Assembly (NCBI RefSeq): GCF_002210295.1
Contig: NZ_MWQH01000006.1
Location: 62,001 to 126,000, forward strand
Direction of reading: 5' to 3'
Source of the DNA: Fibrobacter sp. UWB5
GTDB lineage: Bacteria > Fibrobacterota > Fibrobacteria > Fibrobacterales > Fibrobacteraceae
DNA: 64,000 nt
Part shown: positions 45,208 to 48,089 of the stretch, in pieces
Position numbering within the stretch: the stretch's first letter is position 1
Layout of the letters: each line of letters begins with the position of its first letter
Made by a program: the position numbers and the translations under genes
The notes under the pieces: generated by a model
What the model was told of the DNA's origin: nothing
Databases searched by the model: none
What the model saw: only the letters and a program-made list of their open reading frames with translations

Positions 45208-46311
45208 ATGATATTTCGAAAGATCGTAGTGACCGCAGCAATCGCTTGCCTAGTTCTTGCTTTTACCGCCTGCTGCGACGACGACAGCAGCAGCTTCGTT
45301 GAACCGGAAAAGGAATCTTCCTCTAGCGAAATCCTGAGCAGCGGCGACGATAGCGTCTCGTCCTCATCGACGAACAGTTCGTCTTCTGCGAAATCGAGTT
45401 CGTCTACAGATGCCAAGAGCAGTTCTTCTGTAACGTCGAGCAGTTCGGGAACGTCGGCAGGGACGAACAGTAGCTCTGGCGAAGAAAAAAGGCCTTGCTC
45501 TGAGGAGGGCAAAACTCAAAGGGCGAATGGGGTAAAGGTTATTTGTCATGACGGTTTTTGGGTTCCGGAATCCTCCAGTTCGGCGGAGCCTACTAGCAGC
45601 TACTTCGATATGACGGAACAATTCAATCCGGATGTTGAGTACGGAGAATTCACAGACCCTCGCGACGGACACAAGTATCGTACGGTGAGCATGTATGATG
45701 ATTCTTTTGAGAGAACCTATGTTATCTTTGCCGAAAACCTGAATTATGGCAAGATGGTGTCGGGCGGTACGGTGCAGGGCGATTCCACGAAGTACTGCTA
45801 CGATGACGACTCGTGGTACTGCGAAAATGGCTGGGGCGGACTCTATACCTGGAGCAATGCAATGGGCTTTCCTGCCGTATGCGACAGTGTATCCATCAGT
45901 GCGGAGGCCTGCTCGCAAAAATTTGTTTATCCCAGTGGATATGGGCAACCCCAGAACTACGTCCAGCATCAGGGAATTTGCCCGGAGGGCTGGCATATTA
46001 TGAATTCTGGCGAATGGGCGCATTTAGACCAAAGAACGGGGGGCAGTGTCGCCCACTATATGGGCTCGAATGTTGCCGGCTTCGGCAACGAGAATTTGTA
46101 CGGAATGTCCTTGCTGCCTGCAGGGTATTGGAATCCTGTAGCTCTAGAGTATGGATACATTTCAAATTCTGCGTTATATTGGCTGCCGCAACAATATCCA
46201 GAATATGATGATTGTTCATATCGAGTTGCGATTCAAACGAATGAGTTTAATAGAACCTTTAGAGGTTTAAAAACGCAGGGCTTTTCTGTCCGCTGTGTAA
46301 AAAACTACTAA
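45208..46311 (+). CDS. FISUMP-domain lipoprotein 1
   Basis: The 367-residue protein has a lipoprotein signal (lipobox FTAC), a long Ser-rich linker (about 25-95), a short Cys module (CSEEGKTQRANGVKVICHDG with FWVP after it), and a C-terminal FISUMP domain (about 140-367). That domain shows EFTDPRDGHKYRTV, FAENLNYG, CYDDDSWYCENGWGGLYTWS, GICPEGWHIMNSGEW and a final GFSVRCVKNY. FISUMP is the major paralogous domain of Fibrobacter succinogenes and is usually extracellular; its function is not established. It is followed 60 nt later by a LEPR-XLL mini-ORF, an arrangement repeated at 46630-47989. Confidence 0.9.
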   Translation: MIFRKIVVTAAIACLVLAFTACCDDDSSSFVEPEKESSSSEILSSGDDSVSSSSTNSSSSAKSSSSTDAKSSSSVTSSSSGTSAGTNSSSGEEKRPCSEEGKTQRANGVKVICHDGFWVPESSSSAEPTSSYFDMTEQFNPDVEYGEFTDPRDGHKYRTVSMYDDSFERTYVIFAENLNYGKMVSGGTVQGDSTKYCYDDDSWYCENGWGGLYTWSNAMGFPAVCDSVSISAEACSQKFVYPSGYGQPQNYVQHQGICPEGWHIMNSGEWAHLDQRTGGSVAHYMGSNVAGFGNENLYGMSLLPAGYWNPVALEYGYISNSALYWLPQQYPEYDDCSYRVAIQTNEFNRTFRGLKTQGFSVRCVKNY

Positions 46312-46340
46312 TTATAACAAGATTTTAAACAAATTAACTA

Positions 46341-46359
46341 GGCTTTTCCTTGAAAAGCC
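46341..46359 (+). promoter_or_regulatory. Hairpin before LEPR-XLL mini-ORF 1
   Basis: GGCTTTTC and GAAAAGCC form a perfect 8-bp stem with a 3-nt loop, 12 nt before the mini-ORF start codon. A similar hairpin (GGCTTT/AAAGCC) stands at the same place before mini-ORF 2. There is no T-run after it. Confidence 0.5.
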
Positions 46360-46371
46360 AATGGGGTCTAT

Positions 46372-46620
46372 ATGTCCAAGTCCAAAAAGAACAACAAGAA
46401 AATTGCCAAGAAAGTTTCTCGCAACAGCTATAAAATCGAGTCTCTCGAACCGAGACTCTTGATGGACGCTGCGCCGAATGCGAATGATTGGATTAAGGAA
46501 GCCGATGCTGCTAATATGAATTTTGGCGAATATTCGATTAGCGCCGGTTCCATGGAAATGGAAAATATTCTTATTCAGTTATATTTGCGCGCGGAAAATA
46601 TAAACAGAATACCGAGGTAA
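46372..46620 (+). CDS. LEPR-XLL mini-ORF 1 (truncated large secreted protein or small peptide)
   Basis: The 82-residue product starts with a Lys-rich stretch (MSKSKKNNKKIAKKVSRNSY) and then KIESLEPRLLMDAA, the LEPR-XLL motif known from the N-termini of very large repetitive surface or secreted proteins. After it comes an acidic segment (NANDWIKEADAANMNFGEYS) and an abrupt end. It is far shorter than usual carriers, so it may be the 5' remnant of a deleted giant gene, or a genuine short protein. The next lipoprotein starts 10 nt after its stop, so the two are likely co-transcribed. Confidence 0.6.
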   Translation: MSKSKKNNKKIAKKVSRNSYKIESLEPRLLMDAAPNANDWIKEADAANMNFGEYSISAGSMEMENILIQLYLRAENINRIPR

Positions 46621-46629
46621 CGGAGTAAT

Positions 46630-47814
46630 ATGAAAAATTGTAGAAAAGTGATTGCGACGAAGTGGTTGAAGCATATCATAAACACTAATAATGTCATTGC
46701 GAGCACGGAGTGCGCGGCAATCTCTATTATACTTGCTTTGTTTTTAGCCGCCTGTGATGACAGTTCCAGCGGAGCCGGACCGGACCCGGTAGCGGAAGTT
46801 TCGTCCTCTAGTGGCGATGATGCAATCTCCTCGAGTTCCGTTACGGACAAAGGAACATCTTCCGGTGGCAGTTCGAGGTCCTCTAGTTCTGTAAGTGGCA
46901 AGAATAGTAGCTCCTCAGTGGTGAAGTCTAGTAGTTCTTTTTCTATTGTTGATTGGCATATACCTTGTGAAGGTGGATCCGGTATTTGGGAAATTGACGA
47001 TGAAAAGTATGTATGTGAAGAAGGTTTTCTTGTCCCTTACATTCCGCCTTCTAGTAGTAGTTCTTCTAGTGCAAAGACTTATCCGTACAAGGATAAATTC
47101 AAAGAAGACAGTGTCTTTAACGAAGAGAAATCGTATGGAACTTTCAAAGACCCGCGTGATGGGCAGGAATATAGGACCATCGTTATAAAAACTAAGTCTG
47201 CGACATCACCTGAGTTTGAAGTGTTTGCTCAAAATTTGAATTATGGTACCCAGGTGAATCTTGGAACGACTGTTTTTGATGATAATGAGGTTGAAAAATT
47301 CTGCTATGACGATGATCCCTGGTATTGCGAGCATTATTTTGGAGGCTTATATTCTTGGAGCGAAACATTTGGACTCCCTAGGGCGTGTGATAGTGTGTGG
47401 ACTGGAACGACGCCGAATTGTCCTGATTCCATTGCGACGGGAATAAAATCTGTTTATGATTGGAATTATCTTCAAATTCAAGGAATATGTCCGGAGGGTT
47501 GGCATGTGATGAATGAAAATGAATGGCGTGCCATGATTCGAGGTGAAGAATCTGCATATAGATCTATATCGTTAGCTTCAGAGGGTGTAAATAGTAATGG
47601 CTTTTCTGCTTTGTTTGGGGGTGGTGGATATAACGACCAAAAAGGATGTCGGTATGATCATGTTGGAGAATATGGTCGCTATTGGTTACCCAAGGAAAAT
47701 TCTGATCAGGTGGCTTTCGAGATTTTTTTGGATAAATCAGAATGGAATATAGCTCGGTTAGGAAAAGTTTATGGCCTATCTGTTCGCTGTGTGAAGGACT
47801 ATTCCTCATTGTAG
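46630..47814 (+). CDS. FISUMP-domain lipoprotein 2, signal peptide containing a palindromic element
   Basis: The 394-residue protein has the same plan as the one at 45208: lipobox LAAC, Ser-rich linker (about 45-105), Cys module (CEGGSGIWEIDDEKYVCEEG), and a FISUMP domain (about 160-394) with TFKDPRDGQEYRTI, FAQNLNYG, CYDDDPWYCEHYFGGLYSWS, GICPEGWHVMNENEW and GLSVRCVKDY. The N-region is unusually long (about 40 residues before the lipobox) because a palindrome (46693-46723) is read in frame as IASTECAAI. CGGAG precedes the ATG. The 3' half uses more A/T-rich codons than its neighbour, suggesting separate ages. Confidence 0.88.
   Translation: MKNCRKVIATKWLKHIINTNNVIASTECAAISIILALFLAACDDSSSGAGPDPVAEVSSSSGDDAISSSSVTDKGTSSGGSSRSSSSVSGKNSSSSVVKSSSSFSIVDWHIPCEGGSGIWEIDDEKYVCEEGFLVPYIPPSSSSSSSAKTYPYKDKFKEDSVFNEEKSYGTFKDPRDGQEYRTIVIKTKSATSPEFEVFAQNLNYGTQVNLGTTVFDDNEVEKFCYDDDPWYCEHYFGGLYSWSETFGLPRACDSVWTGTTPNCPDSIATGIKSVYDWNYLQIQGICPEGWHVMNENEWRAMIRGEESAYRSISLASEGVNSNGFSALFGGGGYNDQKGCRYDHVGEYGRYWLPKENSDQVAFEIFLDKSEWNIARLGKVYGLSVRCVKDYSSL
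46693..46723. repeat. GTCATTGCGAGC...GCGGCAATCT palindromic element within a signal peptide
   Basis: ATTGC/GCAAT and GCAC/GTGC pair around a short centre, giving the common interspersed palindrome GTCATTGCGAGC...GGCAATCT. It lies entirely inside the coding sequence of the FISUMP lipoprotein at 46630. Confidence 0.75.
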
Positions 47815-47861
47815 ATAAACTAAAATCTGAATTTATAATCTGAAAAATTTAACAAAAAAAA

Positions 47862-47878
47862 GGCTTTGGGGAAAAGCC
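47862..47878 (+). promoter_or_regulatory. Hairpin before LEPR-XLL mini-ORF 2
   Basis: GGCTTT and AAAGCC form a 6-bp stem with loop GGGGA, directly before AAGGGAG and the start codon at 47894. It matches the hairpin at 46341-46359 in place and sequence. Read on the minus strand it is followed by seven T residues. Confidence 0.5.
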
Positions 47879-47893
47879 CTAAGGGAGTTATTT

Positions 47894-47989
47894 ATGTCAA
47901 AGAAGAACATCAAGAGTAATAAGAAAAAGTCCGTTCGTGGCAATTATAAAATTGAGGCGTTAGAACCTCGTTTGATGATGGACGCTTAA
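47894..47989 (+). CDS. LEPR-XLL mini-ORF 2 (31 residues)
   Basis: ATG 47894 has a clear ribosome binding site (AAGGGAG). The product is a Lys-rich start (MSKKNIKSNKKKSVRGNY) followed by KIEALEPRLMMDA and a stop. It therefore encodes the LEPR-XLL motif and nothing else, ending exactly where the motif ends. It is the counterpart of the 82-residue ORF at 46372 and follows a FISUMP lipoprotein in the same way. It may be a remnant truncated by a stop codon, or a real peptide. Confidence 0.55.
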   Translation: MSKKNIKSNKKKSVRGNYKIEALEPRLMMDA

Positions 47990-48089
47990 CCCCACCCCAA
48001 AATCAACCACCCCGCACCCCAACACGCCGACATCTCAAGAAAAATGCTATAAAAATGCGCTTTTACAATGAATTCGGCATTTTTCTTCC

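Follow-up and report, generated by a model that had tools for sequence, protein, structure and literature searches.

Layout of the locus

The window, by which we mean the whole 64,000-nucleotide stretch of Fibrobacter sp. UWB5 DNA that was analysed, contains a locus flanked by dnaK and a GH43 gene, in which a FISUMP lipoprotein gene is followed by a hairpin and then by a LEPR-XLL open reading frame, twice in tandem (45208-47989; Table 1). This order had been described in an earlier sequence-only reading, and is confirmed by the coordinates and HMM scores of all four genes: both LEPR ORFs score above the curated cut-off of the LEPR-8K model (NF012209 of NCBIfam; 17 bits), and both lipoproteins above that for FISUMP (TIGR02145; 41.65 bits). 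The first lipoprotein is built from a lipoprotein-type N-terminus, a Ser-rich linker and a C-terminal FISUMP domain; the second starts 10 nt past the stop codon of ORF1. The hairpins pair 46341-46348 with 46352-46359 and 47862-47867 with 47873-47878, with the Shine-Dalgarno-like sequence AAGGGAG directly 3' of the second, ahead of ORF2. A Lys-rich ‘head’ precedes the LEPR residues in both ORFs (25-28 in ORF1, 23-26 in ORF2).

Table 1. Features of the two tandem units (window coordinates).
Feature	Position	Strand	Evidence
FISUMP lipoprotein 1 (367 aa)	45208..46311	+	TIGR02145 89.4 bits, PF09603 63.2 bits
Leader 1: TTTTAAACAAA box and hairpin	46319..46359	+	Sequence; leader model R1 57.2 bits, E 4.4e-15; cross-species covariation
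Shine-Dalgarno-like AATGGGG 5' of ORF1	46360..46371	+	Sequence
LEPR ORF1 (82 aa): head with the beginning of a giant body, ended by a stop	46372..46620	+	LEPR-8K 22.8 bits
FISUMP lipoprotein 2 (394 aa)	46630..47814	+	TIGR02145 88.9 bits
Leader 2: ATTTAACAAA box and hairpin	47843..47878	+	Sequence; R1 48.8 bits, E 1.8e-12
LEPR ORF2 (31 aa, MSKKNIKSNKKKSVRGNYKIEALEPRLMMDA, then stop; ends LEPRLMMDA)	47894..47989	+	LEPR-8K 21.1 bits; junction recurs in five other species
C-rich flank (ACCCCACCCCAAAATCAACCACCCCG...), which meets ORF2 at MDA	47988..48030	+	Sequence comparison between loci

ORF1 and ORF2, at just 82 and 31 aa, are the sole LEPR-8K matches above cut-off in the 3.36 Mb genome to which the window belongs, and the same search found no giant LEPR protein there. 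FISUMP domains are plentiful by comparison, with 67 matches, only four of which carry a leader and LEPR head; two of these four units are intact (those of the window) and two, on other contigs, have broken heads (G000:C5:208186 and G000:C9:16971, loci L186 and L187), destroyed by dispersed repeats and stop codons.

FISUMP has no sequence relative in the PDB, and the AlphaFold prediction of its fold (pLDDT 65) was too weak to use and gave no PDB match with E below 1. At mini-ORF junctions of the dnaK type (window 46630-47811, L061, L054, L052 and L040) the FISUMP domains are 37-56% identical between species, and so this domain appears either to diverge fast or to be exchanged fast.

The shared hairpin, on which the sequence-only reading had remarked, is borne out as no accident. 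It is present in 16/16 of the short LEPR ORFs (‘minis’) of ORF2's tail class and upstream of 6/12 giants, whilst being rare in minis with the FAV and AAVE tails described below; in almost every folded leader its 3' end lies 11-14 nt from the start codon, and five of the six core stem pairs show changes on both sides. The arms were chosen by folding, which biases the percentage paired, and the covariation is seen with hand-registered arms; RNAalifold on a MAFFT alignment gave no consensus pair, because MAFFT misaligned the stem arms. No Rfam family matched the leader hairpin. The hairpin is thus not due to chance, and is a feature of one operon lineage; as to its action, we can only guess at insulation or stabilisation of the downstream message.

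The FISUMP-LEPR operon across the Fibrobacteraceae

In a comparison between species, with one genome per species, LEPR-8K matches above cut-off were found in 35 of the 80 Fibrobacter genomes searched. Some are giants (open frames mostly of 4,000-8,000 aa) and some are truncated; many others are minis of ~27-40 aa with recurring ends (...MMDA, ...MMDFAV or ...MAAVE, each then stop). The claim that the LEPR motif stands at the start of giant secreted proteins therefore holds true, in other Fibrobacter genomes. Minis are found in further genera of the family, too. One truncated form, of 146 aa (MMMNADVVL..., with a tail of 127 aa), is equally long in several species, as well as in a second genus (L035, L046, L062, L077, L018, L259), and often sits within FISUMP arrays.

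A FISUMP gene lies on the same strand, no more than 420 nt upstream, at 81 of the 86 LEPR sites in the fetched loci, the other five being at a contig or locus edge. That FISUMP genes precede LEPR ORFs, a check suggested by the sequence-only reading, hence holds at 81/81 assessable sites as against 13/434 control ORFs, and the order is far above chance. Could the small ORFs themselves be chance frames, or artefacts of assembly? ORF2 has only 31 codons, and several contigs of related genomes end beside mini-ORFs, but the HMM scores exceed the curated cut-off and the same junctions are found in independent genomes, including the closed, single-contig genome G150 of another genus, which has the FAV linker; this recurrence refutes the explanation, and we give it next to no credence.

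In the parent operon, FISUMP comes first and a giant LEPR/RTX protein (4-8 thousand aa) second; an M50/HlyD-like membrane protein and, last, a SecA-like ATPase follow. A giant fragment that was tested has RTX repeats (HemolysinCabind matches), and 3' of the giants in many genomes lies an M50-like protein of ~720 aa with an RND_mfp-like stretch, followed by the SecA-like ATPase (partner matches: M50, RND_mfp-like and SecA_DEAD). We propose this pair, from its sequence and position, as a candidate secretion set for LEPR proteins. The M50-like protein at L100, L102, L103 and L112 also scores 163 bits against a daptide metalloprotease model, below that model's cut-off of 300. The M50 gene is present in 23/80 genomes and absent from the window genome and from G044, G039, G003 and G074; minis are nonetheless present in these last four, G044 having 11 LEPR matches and no giant.

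Aligned over 68 aa, ORF1 is 72% identical to the N-termini of giants L033 and L197 (E 9e-29, in a small local set), and is most likely a truncated giant, judging by that alignment. ORF2 is most likely a head stub, cut at the seam described below, and one of dozens of minis that end at or just after the motif. The suggestion that such ORFs are ‘remnants of giants’ is accordingly well supported, both in general and for ORF1 in particular. We also considered whether the mini tails might be the C-termini of deleted giants; neither ORF1 nor any mini tail matched these significantly, and none of the giants examined had an FAV or AAVE end.

Joins and breaks at the LEPR codons

When all sites were compared, 18 pairs had long homology (at least 700 nt of shared upstream DNA, comprising FISUMP, leader and head), and in 14 of these the similarity ends no more than 30 nt from where the LEPR codons begin, much as a silent-cassette system would have one recombination boundary for its expressed and stored copies. 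The same FISUMP and head lead into a giant body in L084 but into FAV and a stop in L042, and further pairs of giant and FAV mini with the same FISUMP and head are L088 with L081 and L089 with L038. The FAV tail itself (38 nt, 0-1 mismatches) was found 21 times in 12 Fibrobacter genomes, and also in a second genus; all 21 are fused in frame at one codon, to heads that differ and of which ~18 are intact, and past the tail identity drops off within ~160-240 nt, inside the next FISUMP gene. The junction of ORF2 (MDA, stop, C-rich flank) is similarly common to six species, that of the window included. As judged by these comparisons, the LEPR codons are a recurrent recombination seam, and the window pair exemplifies a pattern found throughout the family, with a junction in common. 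The C-rich flank by itself also adjoins unrelated sequence elsewhere, its 25-nt element 3' of ORF2 (ACCCCRCCCCAAAA...) following a different conserved sequence at other loci (L270-L286).

One way to read such a seam is as the 3' edge of a cassette, such that units of FISUMP, leader and LEPR head are stored in arrays and exchanged, allowing different lipoproteins to be put ahead of giants; the mini-ORFs would then be in-frame donor ends, and not peptide genes, the seam being inside coding sequence. The constancy of the FAV linker across 12 genomes, amid variable FISUMP domains and heads, speaks for this, as does an array order in which first-unit, interior FAV and terminal AAVE tails each have constant 5' ends of their own; one head is found at array loci and giant loci of different species, and the heads at the nifJ and larC array loci differ between species. 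Against it, none of ten array-locus proteins checked is a recombinase, no within-genome pair of sites shares 500 nt or more upstream, as recent copying would give, and arrays persist where there is no giant recipient (G044, G039, G003). On this balance we hold active shuffling to be unlikely, although it is the alternative to which we would give most weight.

The FISUMP arrays near nifJ (L038, L043, L053, L062, L066) adjoin an ORF of 399 aa, the L053 copy of which is an AAA_14/DUF4143 ATPase. A mobile-element reading of this neighbour was set aside, the protein being an ATPase and not a recombinase.

An alternative raised by the sequence-only reading is that the mini-ORFs encode a small, basic peptide, functional and co-produced with the lipoprotein. 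Its ribosome-binding site and hairpin are conserved, minis are retained in genomes without giants, and six independent mini-mini pairs give a pN/pS of ~0.17, albeit biased by motif-based detection and giant ancestry; the G016/G058 minis differ by seven synonymous as against two nonsynonymous changes. However, low pN/pS is no proof of a peptide, because minis were found via the motif, which censors nonsynonymous changes, and their heads may be giant-derived, or refreshed from giants; intact heads show 0.13-0.17 on giants and minis alike, and very recent mini-mini pairs lack a synonymous excess (1 S : 3 N).

Heads were also surveyed by the leader model R1 alone, without the motif, and so covering the hairpin lineage only. 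This search found 70 leaders in 19 genomes, plus one weaker leader in the window genome. After correction for GTG starts, and for one head positioned further downstream, the heads with their own body were all intact (16/16; a lone ‘broken’ head with a body had matched the body of the next unit), whereas ~31 of the 55 without a body were broken and 24 intact (Fisher p 2e-4, an optimistic value as cases share ancestry). A conserved peptide should keep its ORF intact independent of any giant body, and these heads do not. Heads are broken by dispersed repeats, which were joined or inserted at a few points (following MSK(K), inside LEPRL, at MMDA), and by a 27-nt in-frame deletion through which IEALEPRLM is lost. 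Palindromic REP/MITE-like elements of roughly 85 nt were observed within LEPR heads (L191, L192, L216, L220, L054), and in one case inside the loop of the leader hairpin (G016:C124:6627).

Of the claim for a small LEPR peptide made with the lipoprotein, there thus stands the low pN/pS (0.1-0.2, biased as above); the claim is weakened because about half of the body-less heads are broken and because they persist without the secretion genes. A peptide function is disfavoured, and we think it improbable.

Proposed origin of the window units and comparison with known systems

Synthesising these observations, we think it probable that the two tandem units of the window are 5' stubs of a Fibrobacteraceae operon that joins FISUMP to giant LEPR proteins, and in which the LEPR codons form a recurring junction. 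In its full form, this operon would begin with the FISUMP surface lipoprotein, followed, in one lineage, by the covarying hairpin ahead of the ribosome-binding site, then by a giant RTX-repeat protein starting with the lysine-rich head and LEPRxxMDA, and finally by the M50/HlyD-like membrane protein and the SecA-like ATPase. At the motif codons, one and the same FISUMP and head is seen to run into a giant body, a short constant tail, another FISUMP unit or a dispersed repeat. We suggest that the head may serve as the giant's export signal, recognised by the M50/SecA pair, and that crossovers or breaks could fall at the LEPR codons whenever a body is lost or exchanged, since this stretch is common to otherwise different giants. 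The FISUMP genes would be retained and diversify, with the little ORFs mostly by-products; that minis are mainly operon stubs is argued by the varied continuations of an identical FISUMP and head, and by the breakage of heads that have no body.

Several points sit less easily with a stub origin. Many minis end exactly at the motif, which is more regular than random deletion would give; the 21 FAV tails share one in-frame fusion codon across 12 genomes, mostly behind intact heads; and none of the six minis that have the junction of the window is broken, their amino-acid changes being few. Furthermore, no giant, nor any long LEPR gene of the kind that the sequence-only reading had proposed to look for, lies at the dnaK-GH43-grpE locus in any of the ~40 genomes that have it, the states there being nothing, FISUMP alone, FISUMP with a mini, or FISUMP with a truncated form; the same FISUMP and head are, however, found before giants at other loci.

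Should the stub reading hold, a single operon would link giant secreted proteins to a large family of surface paralogues in a gut genus that degrades cellulose. A candidate secretion pair for LEPR-XLL proteins, M50/HlyD-like plus SecA-like, can be named, together with the prediction that LEPR is an export signal. Small LEPR proteins in databases would best be read with caution, as stubs; and if shuffling is active, rumen bacteria would have a novel means of varying their surface.

A literature search returned LEPR-XLL in incidental mentions only, and no match for FISUMP. FISUMP proteins (TIGR02145/PF09603) number dozens per Fibrobacteraceae genome, with 54 in F. succinogenes S85 (PMC4704652), and in human microbiomes diversity-generating retroelements have been reported to target the domain (PMC4159848). 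The window lipoproteins share with the family a lipoprotein-like N-terminus, the Ser-rich linker and the C-terminal FISUMP domain. As in LEPR-XLL/LEPR-8K proteins (NF012209), the window ORFs have a basic N-terminal head and LEPRLxMDA, and the same head starts proteins of 4,000-8,000 aa in other Fibrobacter genomes; unlike them, they stop 0 to ~50 residues past the motif, in a genome without a giant. Silent-cassette systems of antigenic variation (of the vls or pilS type) have constant ends round variable segments, arrays, and a seam in coding sequence. The Fibrobacter loci resemble these in the constant ends round variable lipoprotein segments, the arrays and the coding-sequence seam, but differ in having no within-genome donor copies and no recombinase among ten proteins, and are known here from one genome per species. 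Finally, like giant RTX adhesin secretion operons, the Fibrobacter operon has RTX repeats, an HlyD-like part and a secretion ATPase; unlike them, its ATPase is SecA-like, the partner is M50-like, and a FISUMP lipoprotein comes first.
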